A stretch of DNA of 62,634 nt from contig JAURFT010000004.1 of NCBI GenBank assembly GCA_030834185.1, positions 1-62,634 of the forward strand. The letters are read 5' to 3'. Below are positions 9,737-50,721 of the stretch, piece after piece (position 1 is the stretch's first letter; every line of letters starts with the position of its first letter). The notes below the pieces were generated by a model that was not told the origin of the DNA, ran no database searches, and saw only the letters and a list, made by a program, of their open reading frames with translations. The position numbers were made by a program, and so were the translations under genes. This DNA comes from Candidatus Nanopelagicales bacterium (GTDB lineage Bacteria; Actinomycetota; Actinomycetes; S36-B12; UBA5976).

Positions 9737-10552
9737 TTATCGAGTTGCCAAGAACCGACCCAGATCTTTTTCAGGATCCAGCACTGCACTTAGTAATTTC
9801 TTTGTGTATTCCTGCTGTGGATTGCCAAACAATGCTTCGACTGGCCCCTGTTCTACGACTTTTCCTGACTCCATCACCACAATGTCATCAGAGATAAAGG
9901 CAACCGTGCCCAAGTCATGTCCAATAAACAGATAAGTGAGTTGAAATTTTGCTTGTAGTTCTTTTAGCAGATTCAAAATCTGAGCCTGAATTGATAGATC
10001 TAGTGACGAAATTGGTTCATCTAAGATGATGAATTCAGGTTGTAGTGCAAGGGCTCGAGCAATGCTCACTCGCTGTGCCTGGCCTCCAGAAAGCTGATGT
10101 GGATAACGCATGGCGTAACTTGGCTCTAAGCCAACCATGACTAGTAATTCTTCAACTCGAGCTGACCGCTCCTCTTTACTACCAACTGCATGCACTACTA
10201 ATGGTTCGGAAATGGACTTCAAAACCGTCATTTTTGGGTTAAGTGATGAAAACGGATCTTGGAAGACAGTTTGCACTCGTCTACGGAAGGCCTTAAGTGA
10301 AGCACCACTTAATCCTGTTACGTCCTGACCATCAAACATAACACTGCCACTAGTAGGGGCTAACAATTTGGCCAAAATGGAGGCAACTGTGGATTTACCA
10401 GAACCCGACTCTCCAACTACACCAAGCGCTTTACCCTTTTTGATTTCAAAATCCACATGGTCAACAGCTCGAAGATTTACGCGCGACCCACGCTTTCCAA
10501 TCTTGTAGTCTTTAACTAAGTCTGTAACTTGAATTAGTGGTGCAGTTCCCAT
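9737..10552 (-). CDS. Oligopeptide/nickel-type ABC transporter ATPase (DppF-like)
   Basis: A 271-residue ATPase: Walker A GESGSGKST, Q-loop FQDPFSSLNP, signature LSGGQAQR, Walker B FIILDEP, switch His in FIGHDLG. The PFSSLNPK sequence is typical of the second (F) ATPase of Opp/Dpp systems. It lacks a long C-terminal Cys motif, consistent with F rather than D. Last gene of a five-gene minus-strand operon (15080 to 9737), with its start overlapping the stop of the D subunit by one base. Confidence 0.9.
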   Translation of the reverse strand: MGTAPLIQVTDLVKDYKIGKRGSRVNLRAVDHVDFEIKKGKALGVVGESGSGKSTVASILAKLLAPTSGSVMFDGQDVTGLSGASLKAFRRRVQTVFQDPFSSLNPKMTVLKSISEPLVVHAVGSKEERSARVEELLVMVGLEPSYAMRYPHQLSGGQAQRVSIARALALQPEFIILDEPISSLDLSIQAQILNLLKELQAKFQLTYLFIGHDLGTVAFISDDIVVMESGKVVEQGPVEALFGNPQQEYTKKLLSAVLDPEKDLGRFLATR

Positions 10553-11550
10553 CAGGCACCTTCCGCTGGGTTATGACATGAGAAGATGTGATTTACACTT
10601 TGCTTCGTTGGCTCAAGCCTTGGCACATCTGTTTTACATTTTTCAATTGCTCTTGTACATCTGGGGTGGAATGCACAACCCGATGGAATAGTGGCCAAAG
10701 AAGGTGGTGTGCCTGAAATAGTGGTCAATAGTTCTGCTTTGCTAGCACCGATTCGTGGCATGGAGGAAAGAAGTGCCTGAGTGTAAGGATGTTTTGGTGA
10801 TCGAAGCACTTCCTGAGCAGTGCCAGTTTCTACAATTCTGCCCGCATACATAATTGCAATTCGATCTGCAATTGCTGCTGCCACTCCAATATTGTGAGTG
10901 ATTAAAACAACTGCCATATCACGCTGATCACGGAGCCGTTGAATCAGCTCCAGCACAGCCACTTGGACTGAGGCATCAAGTGCAGTCGTTGGTTCATCAG
11001 CAATTAAGAGTTTAGGCTCAAGTGCAATTGCCATGGCAATCATCACACGTTGCCGTTGACCGCCTGATAGTTGATGTGGAAACTGGTTCGCGCGGCGTTC
11101 TGGATCTGGAATCTGCACTGAATCAAGCAATGAAACTGCTTGATTCCATGCTTCATCCTTGGACATGCCCCGGTGGACCTGAAAAATCTCAGCTATTTGT
11201 GCACCCACCTTGAAGCAAGGGTCAAGTGAAGTTAGCGGATCTTGAAAAATGACGCCAATTTTTTCCGCACGCAACTTTCGCAGCGATTCTTGATCTGCAC
11301 CAAGGATCTCATTTCCTTCAAACTCAATTGATCCAGTAATCCGAGCAGTGCTAGGAAGGAGGCCTGAAACGGCATGCACCGAAACGGATTTACCAGCACC
11401 AGACTCCCCTAATATAACGAAAGTTTCACCAGGAGCCACAGACCAGTTGGTAGTGTGAATGGCTTGCAACGGACCACTAGCAGTGTTAAAAACAACATCC
11501 AAATTTTTGATCGATACGACTGTGTCAACTTTTTGCTCAGCAAGATTCAC
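10552..11550 (-). CDS. Oligopeptide/nickel-type ABC transporter ATPase (DppD-like)
   Basis: A 332-residue ATPase with Walker A GESGAGKS, Q-loop FQDPLTSLDP, signature LSGGQRQR, Walker B LLIADEP and switch ITHNIG. The C-terminal oligopeptide-ABC extension is present, with GCAFHPRCTRA and a later Cys (KCKTDVP), the conserved Cys cluster of D subunits that can bind an iron-sulfur cluster. It lies between the DppC-like permease and the DppF-like ATPase with essentially no spacing, as expected for the heterodimeric ATPase of one importer. Confidence 0.92.
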   Translation of the reverse strand: MNLAEQKVDTVVSIKNLDVVFNTASGPLQAIHTTNWSVAPGETFVILGESGAGKSVSVHAVSGLLPSTARITGSIEFEGNEILGADQESLRKLRAEKIGVIFQDPLTSLDPCFKVGAQIAEIFQVHRGMSKDEAWNQAVSLLDSVQIPDPERRANQFPHQLSGGQRQRVMIAMAIALEPKLLIADEPTTALDASVQVAVLELIQRLRDQRDMAVVLITHNIGVAAAIADRIAIMYAGRIVETGTAQEVLRSPKHPYTQALLSSMPRIGASKAELLTTISGTPPSLATIPSGCAFHPRCTRAIEKCKTDVPRLEPTKQSVNHIFSCHNPAEGA

Positions 11551-11551
11551 G

Positions 11552-12457
11552 TTAGATTTCCTTTGTTTGTGGATCTAATCGATCGCTGAGCCAATCACCA
11601 AACACATTCACGCAAAGAACTGTGAGCATAATTGCAACGGCAGGAAAAGTTGCAATCCACCAAGCAGTCTCTAAGTAATTTCGCCCCTCGCTAAGCATGG
11701 ATCCCCAAGTTGGTGTCGAGAGCGGCACTCCGAGGCCAAGGTAACTCATGGAACTCTCCGCAATGATGGTCTGAGCCACCACGAAGGTCCAAACTACCAT
11801 CATGGCACCGGTGATATTTGGCACGATGTGTTGAAATACGAGTCCGAATCCAGAGCGACCTGAAGAAATCGCTGCCCGATAAAATTCGCTCTCCTTTACG
11901 CTTAAAGACTTTGCATGCGCAAGTCGTGCAAATGGAGTCCAGAGCCAAATTACTAAGGTGAAGATGATTGTGTTAACTCCTGCGCCAACAATAGATACAA
12001 TTGCAATAGCCACAATCAAAAATGGAAATGCCGTTTGGATATCAACAACTCGAAGTATCACTGCCTCTTGCCAGCCTCGAAAATATGCGGCAATAAGCCC
12101 TAAAAATCCACCAATTAACATAGCTAAAGTTGCTGTTGCAAGACCTACTGCAAACGAGACCTTCCCTCCATGCACCAGCCGACTAAATACATCGCGACCT
12201 AACTGGTCGGTGCCGAGCAAGTAACTAACTCCTTCGCCAATTTCGAAAGGCGGCACTAGTCGATAGAGTAGATCTTGGTACGTAGGATCCTGAGGAACCC
12301 AAAGATTTGCCCCAAAACTCAATAGGGCGGCAGCACCAAGGAACGCTAAACTAATGGGGCCCGCTTGCCTGAACCATTTTTTGCGTCCAGGGCCTTTAGG
12401 CAGAGCATCAGACTTTGCTCCAACAAAAAAACTAAACGCTGACATTCGCTGACTCAT
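11552..12457 (-). CDS. Oligopeptide/nickel-type ABC permease (DppC-like)
   Basis: A 301-residue permease: an N-terminal cytoplasmic extension, a first helix (ISLAFLGAAALL), the LLGTDQLGRDVFSRLVHGGKVS block diagnostic of DppC/OppC proteins, then about five more helices. The coupling-helix motif with SSGRSGFGLVFQHIVPN precedes the last helices and meets the ATPases. It is adjacent to the DppB-like permease (2 nt gap), so the two form the transmembrane heterodimer. Confidence 0.92.
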   Translation of the reverse strand: MSQRMSAFSFFVGAKSDALPKGPGRKKWFRQAGPISLAFLGAAALLSFGANLWVPQDPTYQDLLYRLVPPFEIGEGVSYLLGTDQLGRDVFSRLVHGGKVSFAVGLATATLAMLIGGFLGLIAAYFRGWQEAVILRVVDIQTAFPFLIVAIAIVSIVGAGVNTIIFTLVIWLWTPFARLAHAKSLSVKESEFYRAAISSGRSGFGLVFQHIVPNITGAMMVVWTFVVAQTIIAESSMSYLGLGVPLSTPTWGSMLSEGRNYLETAWWIATFPAVAIMLTVLCVNVFGDWLSDRLDPQTKEI

Positions 12458-12459
12458 AG

Positions 12460-13383
12460 CTAGTTAACCTTTGCCCTTAGCCTTGGGTCTACAAATTGAT
12501 ACAACAGATCTACGATCAAGTTAACTAGAACCACCATTACTGCAACTGTGAAAACCCCTGCTTCTAGCATTGGGTAATCTCGAGCCTTAACAGCGTTTAC
12601 CATCAGAGATCCAATTCCTGGCCAGGCAAACACAGCCTCAATAATCACCGCGCCACCTACAAACTTACCGAGGTCAATTCCAATTAGCGAAAGCATTGGC
12701 ACTGAGATATTGCGAAGGATATGCTTAAAACGAATTCTTCTATTGTTAAACCCGAGTGATTTTCCAGTCCGAACATAGCCACGGTTCATTTCCTCAATAA
12801 AGTATGCCCGTACCAAGCGGGTGTGCCTGGCCATCAATACAGCAGAAAGTGCAATAGCTGGCATGATGATGCTTGTTGGCTGCTCATTTCCAAAGCTTGG
12901 CAACCACTGCAGCCAAACTGAGAAAACCAAAATCATAAAGATTCCGATAATAAATGGTGGAATCGATTGACCCAACATCGACATCGACAAAATAAATCGG
13001 CCAGATGCATTCCGGCGCTTCACTGCTGCGAAGATACCCGCAGGAATGGCAACGAGCATGGCCAATGCAAACGCTACAAAGCTTAAATAAAGAGTTGATG
13101 GCAGGGCTTCCAAAATTAGTGGCATTGATGGCTGCAAATATATATATGAGTCGCCAAAGTTCAGTGTTGCTAATTTAATAAGGAAGGCAAAATATTGCTC
13201 AAAAATCGAGCGATTTAAGCCCAGTGACTCTCGAATGATTTCAATGTCTTCGGTAGTTGCTTCACTTCCAGCAACTGCCAAAGCCGGATCGCCACTTACC
13301 CTAACCAAGAAGAATAAAAGAGTGGAGATCCCGAGCACTACAAGTATTAGTTGTAGTGCTCGGGATCCTAGGACTCGCAGCAT
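12460..13383 (-). CDS. Oligopeptide/nickel-type ABC permease (DppB-like), with a 17-bp hairpin in its first codons
   Basis: A 307-residue permease beginning MLRVLGSRALQLILV, typical of DppB, with six helices and the RHTRLVRAYFIEEMNRGYVRTGKSLG coupling region in shortened form (VRAYFIEEM, RTGKSLG). It starts 11 nt after the stop of the solute-binding protein. Codons about 6-19 contain a perfect 17-bp inverted repeat with a 7-nt loop (13327-13367), so the mRNA should fold tightly right after the binding-protein gene. This would be expected to lower permease expression relative to the binding protein. Confidence 0.92.
   Translation of the reverse strand: MLRVLGSRALQLILVVLGISTLLFFLVRVSGDPALAVAGSEATTEDIEIIRESLGLNRSIFEQYFAFLIKLATLNFGDSYIYLQPSMPLILEALPSTLYLSFVAFALAMLVAIPAGIFAAVKRRNASGRFILSMSMLGQSIPPFIIGIFMILVFSVWLQWLPSFGNEQPTSIIMPAIALSAVLMARHTRLVRAYFIEEMNRGYVRTGKSLGFNNRRIRFKHILRNISVPMLSLIGIDLGKFVGGAVIIEAVFAWPGIGSLMVNAVKARDYPMLEAGVFTVAVMVVLVNLIVDLLYQFVDPRLRAKVN
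13327..13367 (-). promoter_or_regulatory. Perfect 17-bp stem-loop embedded in the dppB-like 5' coding region
   Basis: Arms 13327-13343 and 13351-13367 are perfectly complementary (GATCCCGAGCACTACAA and its reverse complement), with loop bases 13344-13350. The hairpin begins about 27 nt past the stop of the solute-binding-protein gene. No immediate U-tract follows on the transcribed strand, so it looks like an mRNA 3'-end stabiliser or processing hairpin rather than a terminator. The arms share the octamer AGTGCTCG with the stem-loop at 29367-29397. Confidence 0.75.
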
Positions 13384-13394
13384 CTAGTTCTTTC

Positions 13395-15080
13395 TCAATT
13401 ACCGATGCTTACAAGGTCAATATTGCCACCAGCATCAATAAAGAATCGCTTGGTTGCCTTTTTGCCTGCCCAAATATCTGGAGTATGGATACCCCACAGG
13501 ATTGGTGCATTTTCCTTCAGAATCTTGCCAGCCTCACAGAAAGCTCGAGTTCGAGCAGGGCTTCTGGTTGATAGTGAAGATGCTTTAGCAATCAACTCGT
13601 CATATCGGGGATCTGAATGGCCAATGTTGTGAGTCGAGTAATTTGTGGTGTAGCGCGCCATCTGCACACCAGCATCTAAGTCAGGACTTGATGACATTCG
13701 CCAAGCGAATAAGTCCTTACGTGGAATAGCTCCACGAAGATAGTAAACATCCAGGAACTTAGAAAACTCCAGAACCTCTACTTCAACCTTGTCCACTGCG
13801 TCCAAGCGCTCGATCATTTGAGCGATTGCCTGTGCCATCAATACGTCATTAGTTATGTAGGCAGTGGATGTTTGGAATGTTAGTTTCAGATTGGATACGC
13901 CAGCCTGCTTCATGAGGTCATTGGCTTTCTTCATATCATATGGATAGGCCGTAACTTCGCGGCAATATCCAGTCAGATTGCTCGGCACAAGTTGTGCTTG
14001 TGCAATAGAGCCTAAACCACTATTAACGCGATCAATCAATGCCTGCTTATCGACGGCAAAATTCAGCGCTTGCCTTACACGCTTGTCAGCGAGTGGGCCC
14101 GATTTTGCCATGATACTCATGTGATAGGTCGCTGGCTCAATGATTGAATTCACAGCAAAGCTTCTACGCAATGAGGCAATGTCGTCAGTTGGAACTTTGT
14201 TCACAACATCTAAGCCACCTGACCTAAGTCCAGACATACGTGAGGCATCTTCAGGAATCACTTTGAAGACAATCTTGGTCGCGGCAGGAACTACACGAAG
14301 TGATGATGGATTTGGCTCAAGCACTAGCTCCACGTTTGGTGTAAAGCTGGTTGCAACAAATGGGCCAGTACCTACTGGTGCTCGCCAGAATGCTGCAGCA
14401 CCTTTGGCCGCAAATTCCTTTGGCGGCAAAATAGGTACAGTACCTAGAGCACGAGGCAATAGATATCTTGGTGCAGACGTAGTGATTTTTACCTTGTACT
14501 CTGACATAACTTCAATTCGAGTTATTTCAGAAATCTTTGCTCGCAAGCCTGCTCTGTTGGCTGGATTCAAAACCCACTCTAACGAGGCTTTAACTGCAGT
14601 GGCATTGACTGGTTCGCCATTAGGAAAGGTCTTACCTTGAATTAAATTGAATACCCAGGTTTTTGAATTGCCTTCCTGTGACCAAGAGTCAGCAACATTT
14701 GGCTTAACAATTGGCGTTCCGGTAGAGAGATCAACTCGGGTTAGCGCTGAGTAAATAGCACCCACGATAAATGAACGAGGTGGGGCACTAGCTGCATAAG
14801 CTTCCAGCGATGGCGGCAATGATCCGATACCAATGGTTACGGTTTTACCAGATCCACCTTTAAAGTACTTTTTCCAAACGCGCTTACCTTTTTTGGTAGC
14901 TTTGCAAATAAGAACAGTGTTGTTTACGTACTCTTGTTCTTTCAAATTGGTGCACTTAGCTCCTGCAACTGCAGTATTTGCTGAGGCACTGGTATTGAAA
15001 GCAGTTAAGACTGCGAAAGCCATAACAAAAGTTATGACAGCACTCACAGACTTTTTTGCAAATCCTGCTTTTGTTGCCAT
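13395..15080 (-). CDS. ABC solute-binding protein, family 5 (DppA-like)
   Basis: A 561-residue exported binding protein: signal peptide (MATKAGFAKKSVSAVITFVMAFAVL...ASANT), a short domain with AGAKC, LICKATKKG and VWKKY (the paired-Cys/Trp module also seen at 1-357 and 28084), then a full family 5 binding fold. The family pattern is visible in VADSWSQEGNSKTWVFNL, and VRQALNFAVDKQALI matches its conserved block. AAGGAG precedes the ATG by 10 nt. First gene of the five-gene importer operon. Family members carry peptides, nickel, glycosides or opines; the context suggests import of the island's substrate. There is no lipobox. Confidence 0.9.
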   Translation of the reverse strand: MATKAGFAKKSVSAVITFVMAFAVLTAFNTSASANTAVAGAKCTNLKEQEYVNNTVLICKATKKGKRVWKKYFKGGSGKTVTIGIGSLPPSLEAYAASAPPRSFIVGAIYSALTRVDLSTGTPIVKPNVADSWSQEGNSKTWVFNLIQGKTFPNGEPVNATAVKASLEWVLNPANRAGLRAKISEITRIEVMSEYKVKITTSAPRYLLPRALGTVPILPPKEFAAKGAAAFWRAPVGTGPFVATSFTPNVELVLEPNPSSLRVVPAATKIVFKVIPEDASRMSGLRSGGLDVVNKVPTDDIASLRRSFAVNSIIEPATYHMSIMAKSGPLADKRVRQALNFAVDKQALIDRVNSGLGSIAQAQLVPSNLTGYCREVTAYPYDMKKANDLMKQAGVSNLKLTFQTSTAYITNDVLMAQAIAQMIERLDAVDKVEVEVLEFSKFLDVYYLRGAIPRKDLFAWRMSSSPDLDAGVQMARYTTNYSTHNIGHSDPRYDELIAKASSLSTRSPARTRAFCEAGKILKENAPILWGIHTPDIWAGKKATKRFFIDAGGNIDLVSIGN

Positions 15081-27238: not shown

Positions 27239-28051
27239 TTATTCGATCACGTTAGCAGCACTGAAATAATGACGAATTCGCTGCACATAATGTCCTGAAG
27301 CATCACTTGTCATCATCTCAAGTGTTCTTGGTCTAGGAAGCTCGATATTAATAATTTCAGCAATTCGACCAGGTCTTGGACTCATCACAATTACGCGGTC
27401 AGATAAAAACACCGCTTCGGTAATTGAGTGAGTCACCAGCGCAATGGTCTGATTACTTTCTTTCCAAATTCTAAGCAGCTCTAGATTCATGTATTCACGA
27501 GTCATCGCATCTAGCGCACCAAATGGCTCATCCATCAGCAGAACTGAAGGTGAGTGAATAAGCGCTCGGCAGATGCCAGCGCGCTGCTGCATGCCGCCGC
27601 TGAGTTCATTTGGATATTTATTTTCAAAGCCATCCAGCCCTACTAGTTTTAATAGGTCTGCTGCAATAGCTTTGTATTCTGTTTTATTTCGTTTTTGAAC
27701 TTCTATTGGAATCATTAAGTTTTCTAAAATTGTCCGCCATGGGAGCAAAGTTGGTGCTTGAAAAACCATACCAATCTCTGACAGTGGTTTAGTTACCTCA
27801 TGGCCTGAAACCGCGGCGCTGCCTTCGGTTTTTGAAATAAGGCCAGCGAGAATATTTAACAGCGTGGTTTTACCGCAGCCTGAAGGTCCGACGATGGAGA
27901 TGAACTCACCGCGGCGCACATTGAAATTTATATCTGCCAAGGCATGGGTGGAGTCACCCGTTCGCGTGCGATAGACCTTGTGTAGCCCTTTTACGCTAAT
28001 CCAGGACGCCTCGTTAGAGGCGTCCTGGATGGCGTTGTTCTGTTGGGTCAT
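27239..28051 (-). CDS. ABC transporter ATPase, SsuB/TauB type, with a 14-bp hairpin in its first codons
   Basis: A 270-residue ATPase: Walker A GPSGCGKTT, Q-loop FQAPTLLPW (the LLPW form is typical of nitrate/sulfonate/thiamine-precursor importers), signature LSGGMQQR, Walker B LLMDEP, switch VTHSI. Codons about 8-18, encoding IQDASNEASWI, contain a perfect 14-bp inverted repeat with a 4-nt loop (27999-28030), shortly after the upstream binding-protein gene. This mirrors the dppB-like gene at 13327. Confidence 0.9.
   Translation of the reverse strand: MTQQNNAIQDASNEASWISVKGLHKVYRTRTGDSTHALADINFNVRRGEFISIVGPSGCGKTTLLNILAGLISKTEGSAAVSGHEVTKPLSEIGMVFQAPTLLPWRTILENLMIPIEVQKRNKTEYKAIAADLLKLVGLDGFENKYPNELSGGMQQRAGICRALIHSPSVLLMDEPFGALDAMTREYMNLELLRIWKESNQTIALVTHSITEAVFLSDRVIVMSPRPGRIAEIINIELPRPRTLEMMTSDASGHYVQRIRHYFSAANVIE
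27999..28030 (-). promoter_or_regulatory. Perfect 14-bp stem-loop embedded in the ssuB-like 5' coding region
   Basis: Arms 27999-28012 and 28017-28030 (ATCCAGGACGCCTC and its reverse complement) enclose a GTTA loop. The stem is GC-rich and lies about 53 nt after the stop of the solute-binding-protein gene, inside the next coding sequence. No U-tract follows on the transcribed strand. It is probably an mRNA stabiliser or processing element that favours binding-protein expression. Confidence 0.75.
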
Positions 28052-28083: not shown

Positions 28084-29313
28084 TTACTTACCTGCCTTGT
28101 CCGCAGCGGCCACAATTGGCTTACGATCAAAGTCATTGGCTCGGCCAATTCCCCGATTGTCGAAATGTTTAGCTCGAGAGATCGCTGCAACTGTGGTGCC
28201 AGCAGCACGGGTGTATGCCTGGCTCTTGCTCCAATCGCTTAGAGGTATGTCTCCAAGCATCTTCCATGACGCTGGAGTTCCAGTTGTTGGTGTGGCAGAC
28301 GCTAGCCATACCTTCAGCTGATAAGCACCCAACGCAAGTCTGGATTCAAGTGGCTGTCCAGCTAATGCAGCTGGGATCTCGGTGAAGCCCAATCGAGCTC
28401 CAGAGGTTGGGTTCTGACTTGAATAAGTTAGACCCTTAAATGCTGCTCGCAAGAAGCGCTCAAATACCTCTGGCTCTTTAGCATAGCGATCAGCATTTAC
28501 TACCCATGACAGTGAACGGACGCCGGTTAGCGCAGCTGGGTTGGGTAGGTAGTTGTACTTAGTTCCGGCAAATTCAGTTCCGGCATAGGCTGCTGTGTAA
28601 AATGCAATTGCATCAACATCGCCGCGCTCTAGCGCAACTGTTGCTGGACCAATTGAGCCACCTACTGCAACAAGCTTGACATCAGTTTCTTTCATGCCGT
28701 TACCAGCTAGCCAAGCTTTGGTGTACGGATAGCTTCCAGAACCAAAACCAATAATTCCGATGGTCTTGCCCTTCAGGTCACTTGGGCTCTTGATGTTCTT
28801 CTTTGGATCTGTTGCCATCAACCATGGGAAGTTTTGCACTAGGCCACCGATGATTTTGATGTTTGCACCGCGCTGAATGCCTTGCAGTGCGGAACCTAGA
28901 TCACCTCCAGCGATATCAATTCGACCCTGACCAACTAGGTTTATGGCGTCAATTGATCCACCAGTTGTAACGGCAGAGACATTTAACTTCTCCGACTTGA
29001 AATAACCAAGTTGCTTTGGAACGGCATAAACTGCAAATTCTTCCTTAGGTGCAAAAGCGGCTGAGGCGGCACCAAAAACAAGTGTTGCAGCTTTGTAGCC
29101 TTTCCACTTTGCTTTTCCTGCCTTGCCTTTGCAAGACAATGTGTTTCCGTTGGCTGCAACTCCAATTGCACCAACCTTTGCACATTTCTGACCAGCTCTA
29201 GCAGTTGCAGCTTGTGATGCTGGTGCAAGTGCGACTAGAAGTGAACCTGCTAGCGCAGCACTAAGTACCGCTGAATAAATCTTTTTAACCCGTGGGTTGG
29301 TTAATCCAAACAT
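28084..29313 (-). CDS. ABC solute-binding protein, SsuA/NMT1 type
   Basis: About 409 residues. Signal peptide (MFGLTNPRVKKIYSAVLSAALAGSLLVALA...SQAA), then the paired-Cys/Trp module (AGQKC, LSCKGKAGKAKW), then an NMT1/SsuA-like periplasmic fold (AAFAPKEEFAVYAVPKQLG, TTGGSIDAINLVGQGRIDIAGG, KGKTIGIIGFGSG). Such proteins bind alkanesulfonates, taurine, thiamine precursors or nitrogen heterocycles. The frame extends upstream to 29487, but AAGGAG 4 nt before the second ATG of an ATGATG pair and the signal-peptide position fix the start at 29313. First gene of the importer operon. Confidence 0.87.
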   Translation of the reverse strand: MFGLTNPRVKKIYSAVLSAALAGSLLVALAPASQAATARAGQKCAKVGAIGVAANGNTLSCKGKAGKAKWKGYKAATLVFGAASAAFAPKEEFAVYAVPKQLGYFKSEKLNVSAVTTGGSIDAINLVGQGRIDIAGGDLGSALQGIQRGANIKIIGGLVQNFPWLMATDPKKNIKSPSDLKGKTIGIIGFGSGSYPYTKAWLAGNGMKETDVKLVAVGGSIGPATVALERGDVDAIAFYTAAYAGTEFAGTKYNYLPNPAALTGVRSLSWVVNADRYAKEPEVFERFLRAAFKGLTYSSQNPTSGARLGFTEIPAALAGQPLESRLALGAYQLKVWLASATPTTGTPASWKMLGDIPLSDWSKSQAYTRAAGTTVAAISRAKHFDNRGIGRANDFDRKPIVAAADKAGK

Positions 29314-29366
29314 CATTCTCCTTGGTTGTTTGGTGTGGCAGTTTTCGCTGACTTGAAAACTAAACA

Positions 29367-29397
29367 CAGTATCGAGCAAGACTAGTGCTCGATACTG
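29367..29397. promoter_or_regulatory. Perfect 12-bp stem-loop in the divergent region upstream of the SsuA-like gene
   Basis: Arms 29367-29378 and 29386-29397 (CAGTATCGAGCA and its reverse complement) with a 7-nt loop. It lies 54 nt upstream of the binding-protein start. On the minus strand it would form a 5'-UTR hairpin; as DNA it could be an operator. It shares AGTGCTCG with the hairpin at 13327-13367. Neither neighbouring gene ends here, so a simple terminator is unlikely. Confidence 0.6.
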
Positions 29398-29532
29398 CCA
29401 GGATGTCAAGGTGGTGACCAACTTTACAGCCCGCTTTAAAGTTTTAAGTAGTGCATTCCTGTGAACTTGAATTGCCCATGAGGCCATAGGGTCGGTACGC
29501 TTAAATCAAAATACCTAAATCAAGGACTGCTG

Positions 29533-48775: not shown

Positions 48776-50041
48776 TCAACTAATAATTGGAGGCTCTTCA
48801 ACGGAGAACTGCTTGATTACTAAATTATTCTGCCGCCTAAACCATATCCAGATGACAAAAGCTGCTAACGCGCTAATAATTCCCCCGATTGCAAGGCCGA
48901 ACCTAGCGCCAAAATCTTGGGAAATTTTGCCAATAATTGGTGACCCCACCGGCGAGCCCCCCATAAATACCATTAAATATAAACCTGTCACCCGGCCACG
49001 TAATTTATCTGGAACGGTTGATTGGATGTAGGAATTTGCACTTGCCATTACCATCATTGCTGCATAACCAGCAAGCGGTAAGACTGCTGCAAACATCCAA
49101 TAAGTTGGCATCTGCGATGCAACAATTTCAATTACTCCAAAGGCTATAGCTGCTTTTAAAATAAAATCTAACTTTGGCGCTTCTAGAAACCTCGCCACAA
49201 CTACAGCTCCAGTTACAGTTCCCAGCGCAATCATGGTGCCAAAAAGTCCAAATGATGTTGCACCTAGCCCAAATTCAACTCGTGCCATTAGCGCGGTCAC
49301 AACTTGAAAATTAAATCCAAAAGCTCCAACGATTAAAACTAAAATCATTGTTGCAACCAGATCTGGTCTAGCTTTAACATAGCGCAGCGCAGATCGAACT
49401 CCATCTGATTTACTGGCTCTTCCAAAATTGTGCAATGTGGTTGTGTTCATCATCATTAGTGCTGTAATCACAATGGGATAAGTTAGTGCGTTAATTATGA
49501 ATGCCGGGCCAGTGCCAAATGCCGCAATTAATAATCCTGCAGCAGCTGGTCCAACTAACCTGCCAGCATTGAAGTTAGCTGCATTAAGGCCAATTGCATT
49601 TGGTAGATCTTCTTTACCCACTAATTCAGGAACAAAAGATTGCCTAATTGGTGCATCAACTGCGCTTGCAATTCCAAGCATCACTGCTAGAACCATCACA
49701 TGCCAGACCTGAACTAGATCTGTAATTACCAATATTCCTAAAGTTAATGCTGCAGAACCTGCCAAAGTGTTGGTTAATATTAGAAGTTTGCGTTTATTTC
49801 GACGATCTGCCAGTTTGCCGCTAGGCAAACTTAGAAACAGCGCTGGCAGAAACTGCAATCCGGTAACAATTCCTAAAATTGTGCCAGAGCCAGTAAGTTC
49901 AAGCACGAGCCAATCTTGCGCAATGCGCTGCATCCAAGTTCCAAGATTCGCCATCAGGTTTGCACTAAAAAACAACTTATAGTTGCGGTGCCTTAAGGAG
50001 CGAAAAGTTCGAGTATCAGCGACGGATTTTGGTTGAAACAC
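48776..50041 (-). CDS. MFS transporter, MFS_3/DHA3-like exporter (paralog of 2774-4066)
   Basis: A 421-residue, about 12-helix transporter. MANLGTWMQRIAQDWLVLELTGSG and PSGKLADRRNKRK match the first MFS gene closely, so the two are paralogs. GTG start, with TAGAAT (minus strand, bases 50048-50053) 6 nt upstream and no Shine-Dalgarno; a leaderless mRNA is likely. It runs away from the stem-loop at 50061 and the tspO-like gene. Confidence 0.86.
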   Translation of the reverse strand: MFQPKSVADTRTFRSLRHRNYKLFFSANLMANLGTWMQRIAQDWLVLELTGSGTILGIVTGLQFLPALFLSLPSGKLADRRNKRKLLILTNTLAGSAALTLGILVITDLVQVWHVMVLAVMLGIASAVDAPIRQSFVPELVGKEDLPNAIGLNAANFNAGRLVGPAAAGLLIAAFGTGPAFIINALTYPIVITALMMMNTTTLHNFGRASKSDGVRSALRYVKARPDLVATMILVLIVGAFGFNFQVVTALMARVEFGLGATSFGLFGTMIALGTVTGAVVVARFLEAPKLDFILKAAIAFGVIEIVASQMPTYWMFAAVLPLAGYAAMMVMASANSYIQSTVPDKLRGRVTGLYLMVFMGGSPVGSPIIGKISQDFGARFGLAIGGIISALAAFVIWIWFRRQNNLVIKQFSVEEPPIIS

Positions 50042-50060: not shown

Positions 50061-50098
50061 CCTATTGCCCCGCTGTATTTAAGCAGCGGGGCAATAGG
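50061..50098. promoter_or_regulatory. Perfect 15-bp stem-loop in the divergent MFS/tspO intergenic region
   Basis: Arms 50061-50075 and 50084-50098 (CCTATTGCCCCGCTG and its reverse complement) with an 8-nt loop. It lies 20 nt upstream of the MFS start, i.e. over the MFS -10/-35 region, and no gene ends here. It is GC-rich and not followed by a T-run on either strand. It may be an operator or mark a small RNA; it is not explained by the neighbouring genes. Confidence 0.6.
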
Positions 50099-50250
50099 TC
50101 TTAACTTGGCTCAAACCAAGAAATTAGCGAATTGCCAAGGATCAGGGTCTTTTGCTGAGCCATCAATGCTGCTACCTAATTGCTGTTTCTAACCTGCGAA
50201 ACCAATGGTTTATGTGGAATGGATTTCTTGAAATAGCATATCGTTGCCGT

Positions 50251-50721
50251 ATGAGCACAGTTCGAATAGGCATAGCAACTGCAGCGATCCTGATCACTGT
50301 TGGCTACGCCCTTGGATCAAGTGTCTGGGTCAGCAGTGATGCTGGTTGGTATAGATCGCTAGTGCAGCCCGCTTGGCAGCCGCCTGACTGGATATTTGGA
50401 GTGATCTGGCCCTATAACTTTATCGTTCTTGGAATTGTTGGATTTATGATTGCAAAACAAGCAACAATTTTGCAGGCATGGCTTTGGCTAGGTTTTTATT
50501 TTTTTAGCGTGATATTTGCTCTAGTTTGGTCTTACTTGTTTTATGTGCCGCACAATATTGGTGCATCAGCAATTGCGCTTGCCCTAGCTTCTTTACTAAC
50601 TCTACCAGTACTAATAATTACATTTCAAACAGATCTTAAATACGCTGTGTTTTTGCTGCCTTATCAAATTTGGGTAATTGTGGCTACATTTTTAGCATTC
50701 AGTTACGCTGCTAAAAATTAA
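50251..50721 (+). CDS. TspO/MBR family membrane protein
   Basis: About 156 residues, five helices. WYRSLVQPAWQPPDWIFGVIWPYNF is the TspO signature (shortened: QPAWQPPDW, FGVIWPYNF), and the C-terminal LLPYQIWVIVATFLAFS matches the family's fifth helix. The frame is open from 50152, but that extension is not TspO-like. The ATG at 50251 has TATCGT ending 6 nt upstream and no Shine-Dalgarno, suggesting a leaderless start. Ligand unknown; the family binds porphyrins or cholesterol-like molecules. Confidence 0.83.
   Translation: MSTVRIGIATAAILITVGYALGSSVWVSSDAGWYRSLVQPAWQPPDWIFGVIWPYNFIVLGIVGFMIAKQATILQAWLWLGFYFFSVIFALVWSYLFYVPHNIGASAIALALASLLTLPVLIITFQTDLKYAVFLLPYQIWVIVATFLAFSYAAKN

Follow-up and report, generated by a model that had tools for sequence, protein, structure and literature searches.

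A perfect hairpin in the first codons of a dppB-like permease gene, a likely RNA element of the preceding solute-binding protein gene in a Candidatus Nanopelagicales bacterium

In this study, a perfect RNA hairpin was located in the first codons of a dppB-like permease gene, just past the stop codon of a solute-binding protein (SBP) gene, and strong hairpins were found after nearly every SBP gene of the same genome. We consider it likely that the hairpin acts in the sense-strand RNA and serves the upstream SBP gene, whose mRNA 3' end it would form or protect, leaving more SBP than permease message. Cells need more binding protein than membrane partner, and the means by which operons provide this excess are known from a few model bacteria. 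The window, that is, the whole stretch of DNA analyzed, comprises 62,634 nt of contig JAURFT010000004.1 from a Candidatus Nanopelagicales bacterium.

Results

Position and Form of the Hairpin in the dppB-Like Gene

The hairpin lies in an operon for oligopeptide uptake (Table 1), in which the SBP_bac_5 gene is presumed to be the gene whose mRNA 3' end is formed or protected. The arm at 13327-13343 (GATCCCGAGCACTACAA) is the exact reverse complement of 13351-13367, and the structure, with an energy of -32.2 kcal/mol, occupies nt 17-57 of the coding sequence (CDS). The SBP stop codon ends at 13395, with a gap of 11 nt to the dppB-like gene and of 27 nt to the start of the hairpin; the ATG at 13383-13381 is the sole candidate start in its frame. 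An earlier note on this DNA had described this palindrome, its loop, its codons and both distances, and it was right to the base. The stretch encodes GSRALQLILVVLGI, which is aligned to WSRIIQLLILLWSV in a paralogue (39% from residue 3 of the permease) and is a normal first transmembrane stretch, with the Pfam domains BPD_transp_1_N and BPD_transp_1 at residues 1-71 and 112-303, respectively.

Table 1. Features around the two embedded hairpins of the window.
Feature	Position	Strand	Remarks
SBP_bac_5 solute-binding protein gene	13395..15080	-	561 aa; upstream of the dppB hairpin; Pfam PF00496, 1.5e-62
Perfect RNA hairpin	13327..13367	-	17 bp + 7-nt loop; codons 6-19 of the dppB-like gene
dppB-like permease gene	12460..13383	-	307 aa; hairpin in the first transmembrane segment; PF19300 (residues 1-71) + PF00528
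dppC-like permease gene	11552..12457	-	same operon as dppB-like; Pfam PF00528
Oligopeptide ABC ATPase gene, dppD-like	10552..11550	-	Pfam PF00005 + PF08352
Oligopeptide ABC ATPase gene, dppF-like	9737..10552	-	Pfam PF00005
NMT1-type solute-binding protein gene	28084..29487	-	upstream of the second hairpin; Pfam PF09084
Perfect stem	27999..28030	-	14 bp, 4-nt loop; codons 8-17 of the ABC ATPase gene
ABC transporter ATPase gene	27239..28051	-	second hairpin in N-terminal codons; Pfam PF00005

Codon Choice and the Question of Chance

In its 141-nt context, the hairpin had a fold z-score of -4.9, and none of 200 shuffles was as good. When the protein was held fixed and synonymous codons were resampled at genome codon usage, none of 1000 recodings of dppB reached the real energy (best -23.5 kcal/mol; z -6.4), and the longest perfect stem among them was 8 bp compared with the real 17. 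Therefore, the hairpin is made by codon choice and is not forced by the amino acids. Five further embedded hairpins of the genome were tested in this way, and by energy the result was 0 of 1000 recodings in every case (z -4.5 to -8.5). The genome also holds 58 perfect stems of at least 11 bp, compared with 3-6 in each first-order Markov genome of about equal size, and 28 of at least 13 bp, compared with 2, 0 and 0 in three such replicates.

A functionless origin, by chance or as a mutational accident such as the template-switch correction of a quasi-palindrome, would gain some room from the fact that no dppB orthologue closer than 40%, in which selection on the stem could be seen, was found in the genus, family and GTDB species genomes searched. 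For the same reason, conservation of the dppB hairpin itself is deduced from the recoding test and from the rule for SBP genes given below. We regard this origin as very improbable, since hairpins are tied to SBP genes across the genome, mutational bias would be blind to SBP identity, and repeated, different hairpins stand at sister junctions.

Hairpins After Solute-Binding Protein Genes Across the Genome

Our scan covered 1.19 of the 1.34 Mb (89%) of the window's genome. For each gene with a same-strand neighbor within 120 nt (n = 657 pairs), the best hairpin between positions -10 and +110 relative to the stop codon was scored. A hairpin at or below -29.5 kcal/mol followed 13 of 16 Pfam-confirmed SBP genes and only 7 of the 641 other pairs (Fisher p = 7e-20; Mann-Whitney p = 5e-9), where the SBP list was built from a signal-peptide screen plus Pfam, and an SBP may lie outside that screen. 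The strongest-hairpin end of the ranked pairs consisted mostly of secreted or lipoprotein genes, which by Pfam are SBPs. They belong to SBP_bac_1, SBP_bac_3, SBP_bac_5, SBP_bac_6/8, PBP_like_2, Bmp, Peripla_BP_4, Peripla_BP_6 and NMT1, and with nine families represented the rule cannot reflect one inherited operon. Among the weaker-ranked secreted candidates were two more SBPs, at C75 and, for ZnuA, at C59, both without a strong hairpin; the others were peptidases, chitinase-like proteins, FtsQ, cytochrome c or unassigned.

Equally strong hairpins were also seen at non-SBP junctions of the same genome (contigs C43, C32, C68 and C85), following genes that we take, from an impression of their sequences, to be HU-, L31-, PII-, groES-, polynucleotide phosphorylase-fragment- and atpD-like. 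At the junction from the atpD-like gene (ATP synthase beta subunit) to atpC, the hairpin is within the next gene. Two other palindromes were observed in the genome. One is an inverted repeat upstream of groES on contig C68, between 10392 and 10455 (TTAGCACTC-N9-GGGTGCTAA), presumably a CIRCE (HrcA) element from its appearance; the other is a near-perfect palindrome (CTAACTTACGGTACCGTAACCTACGGTTCCGTAAGTTAG) at ~8411-8454 of contig C63, directly 3' of a small gene resembling BldC.

With its perfectly matched inverted arms and 7-bp spacer, the dppB palindrome might also act as DNA, either as a REP-like repeat element or as the operator of a regulator. Every SBP hairpin has its own sequence, and neither a shared motif among them nor another copy of the dppB arm in the genome (up to 2 mismatches allowed) was found; in family hairpins, in addition, G-U pairs are retained on the sense strand, which is also the strand that folds better. 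A role as DNA is the least probable of the explanations weighed here, and a REP/PU element or operator is largely refuted by the single copy and the missing motif. An Rfam search of the window returned only a tRNA above the gathering score, and the dppB hairpin matched no curated family.

The hairpin could instead be a partial intrinsic terminator, at which polymerase stops in a fraction of passes and SBP mRNA is in excess without any role of decay. Stem-loops in intergenic space after SBP genes of Ruminiclostridium have the same location and the same predicted outcome (PMC9045158), and 3' of the dppB stem, in CCACTCTT, an interrupted U-rich stretch (TCCACTCTTTTATTC) starts ~5 nt past the stem. 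Past most SBP hairpins, in contrast, stand GGGAAGTG, CCCAAGAG or AAAAGGGC, with no canonical U-tract. T is just as scarce after hairpins at convergent gene ends of this genome (2.0 of the 8 nt that follow, compared with 1.9 after SBP hairpins), and a poor U-tract therefore does not exclude termination here. We judge termination unlikely, and the most serious competitor all the same; protection of the 3' end would be clearly favored over it, mainly because of the analogy with CDS-embedded cases of Escherichia coli.

Distance From the SBP Stop Codon and Embedding in the Next Gene

Throughout the genome set, stems started 6-49 nt past the SBP stop. With at least 86 nt between the SBP gene and the next gene, the hairpin was intergenic; with at most 46 nt, it overlapped the next CDS. 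Two paralogues of dppB are cases of the former kind, with the hairpin in intergenic space at gaps of 90 nt (C131) and 117 nt (C21). The next CDS was overlapped by 8 of the 13 strong SBP hairpins, those in dppB and at 27999-28030 included, where some start codons are predicted only and two cases (C110 and C72) are partial overlaps with uncertain starts. The near-constant distance indicates that the SBP stop sets the position of the element, and that embedding follows from short gaps. The earlier proposal that the hairpin is embedded owing to the 11-nt gap accordingly gains support from the 13 of 16 SBP genes, the near-constant distance and the gap-dependent placement.

The same data bear on the alternative that the hairpin chiefly lowers permease translation by structuring the initiation region and leaves SBP mRNA unaffected. 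With nt 17 of dppB as its first base, the stem borders on the initiating ribosome, and in genomes of the small-genome family f31 the permease start codon is within the 5' arm of the hairpin. The position, however, is fixed by the SBP stop and not by the next start, and where the gap is large, post-SBP hairpins lie far ahead of the next start, which makes this alternative improbable.

The second embedded hairpin of the window follows the NMT1-type SBP gene. In the same-genus genome G001, both of its arms are identical, and the loop and flanking codons differ; this was the one useful match in the orthologue search for the NMT1-type SBP, and the SBP at C77 had none. Homologue alignment of the NMT1-type SBP begins at residue 54, and the true start of the gene is probably ~150 nt inside the listed open reading frame. 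A 12-bp perfect inverted repeat with a 7-nt spacer was noticed within that listed frame at 29367-29397. Given where the homologue alignment begins, this repeat probably lies in the 5' leader or is an operator; it is absent from G001. Another perfect hairpin of the window, of 15 bp (50061-50098), is found between the divergent genes 48776-50041 (-) and 50152-50721 (+).

Sister Junctions in Related Genomes

Taken together, the sequences of relatives support an RNA element at sister junctions. Within the same family, a hairpin of -30 kcal/mol or below was found directly past the SBP stop, mostly in intergenic space, at 13 of 16 SBP-dppB loci, and none of the control junctions downstream of dppB in those loci reached -28 kcal/mol. 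About half of the SBP-dppB junctions in other families of the order had a hairpin of that strength, and in other genomes several SBP-dppB junctions with a short gap had only weak hairpins.

At the iron-type junction, where the SBP and permease genes overlap by 4 nt, the hairpin is inside the permease CDS in three genomes of the genus, with a sequence in G001 that differs from that in G000 and G002. It is also in the permease CDS in five genomes of genus g4, where one comparison includes a paired change (CTA..GTA replaced by TTG..GCA). The family members G018 and G021 had weak structure only.

The SBP_bac_3-permease junction had a hairpin of -23 to -43 kcal/mol in all 28 family genomes read, mostly within N-terminal permease codons. 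In an alignment of 14 distinct sequences from one genus in a shared register, 93% of cells pair, 7 pairs are changed on both sides (19 double-change cells), and the covariation score was 0.335, compared with 0.05-0.12 for slid partners. Such paired changes alter the amino acids (SPARDNSGRA to SPIHDNVGRA to SPIHNQVSRA), and G-U pairs are kept in the sense strand. The earlier note had named relatives that keep the amino acids and lose base pairing as the pattern that would speak against its reading; the opposite is seen at these other embedded hairpins, where compensatory changes retain pairing. At the SBP_bac_3 junction of high-GC genomes from other families, the signal did not clearly exceed the control.

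Pairing across the permease start codon was found at this junction in 4 of 5 genomes of family f31, a hairpin that could couple permease translation to structure. In genomes L226-L229, the permease ATG is in the 5' arm (GTTTGGCGACCATG...).

Sense RNA folded better than antisense at 24 of 27 family junctions (p = 4e-5), which points to RNA and not DNA. For the hairpins of the window's own genome alone, the sense strand was better in 9 of 14 (p = 0.17), with no clear advantage, and the perfect dppB palindrome folds about equally on both strands.

Discussion

We propose a likely model for the SBP-dppB junction, in which the transcription of the region, the position of the 3' end, the action of nucleases and the resulting excess of SBP over permease are inferred, and the higher level of SBP mRNA would be expected by analogy. 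RNA polymerase would transcribe through the SBP and permease genes, and once the downstream part has been cut, or where it is missing, PNPase and other 3'-to-5' exonucleases would halt at the hairpin, giving a stable SBP message and a scarcer permease message. The 11-nt gap, together with placement by distance from the SBP stop, would bring the element into the beginning of the dppB coding sequence, where the choice of synonymous codons would have been shaped to make the hairpin.

With somewhat more reserve, we put forward the wider idea, a real possibility in our view, that in these lineages with small genomes the N-terminal segments of many ABC permeases and ATPases are an RNA element for the preceding SBP gene first and protein second, in which the fold is kept and the peptide drifts, and that the permease start codon is itself part of the fold in one family. 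If this is true, a start codon within the fold could tie the translation of the permease to the protection of the SBP mRNA 3' end. Protein tails seem to evolve so as to accommodate the hairpin signal, and where intergenic space is short, the signal for stoichiometry would be moved into the code of the next gene and not lost. The rule found by this sequence-only survey is nearly universal in one compact genome and in its relatives. It may serve as a natural test set in which selection on RNA can be told apart from selection on protein and, for uncultured bacteria, as a simple marker of the ratios in which SBPs are expressed.

Several known systems can be compared with the element. In the SRPS operons of Clostridium, analyzed by SLOFE, the energy of the stem-loop after a gene predicts within-operon stoichiometry, and the stem-loops are described at the 3'-UTR of selected genes (PMC8219983). 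The passages found from the Streptomyces 3'-end literature give no description of hairpins after SBP genes, and in open-licence literature no description of such elements was found for the present lineage. In Ruminiclostridium cellulolyticum, stem-loops occur mostly directly after the SBP genes of ABC importer operons as internal terminators (Wu, 2022, PMC9045158). The stems of the two bacteria are alike in being long and GC-rich and in standing after SBP genes, with low U content in R. cellulolyticum, whereas they are intergenic and reported to terminate there and are often within the next gene here. The maltose operon of E. coli has, as here, the binding-protein gene first and the permease second, and a structure after the first gene (malE-malF) gives an excess of binding-protein mRNA (PMC5927463). 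That structure is intergenic, in contrast to the dppB hairpin, which is in the CDS and is a single copy in its genome.

The closest likeness is to the differentially decaying operons of E. coli, in which decay was measured and 17 of the 26 protective structures were inside the downstream CDS (Dar and Sorek, 2018, PMC5927463). The stabilized gene in the ABC operons of that study was always the binding protein, and the structures had no U-tract and conserved wobble positions (PMC5927463). Both sets share a stable hairpin just 3' of the upstream gene, often embedded in the downstream CDS. In contrast to those structures, for which decay is an experimental result and not, as here, a deduction, the present stems are long (~13-20 bp) and begin close to the CDS start, within a few dozen nt (mean 107 nt in E. 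coli), follow nearly every SBP gene in another lineage, and show amino-acid-changing compensation at a sister junction. The kind of element is already known, and what differs here is that nearly all SBP genes of one genome are followed by it, that the long stems are start-proximal and that the compensation changes amino acids.
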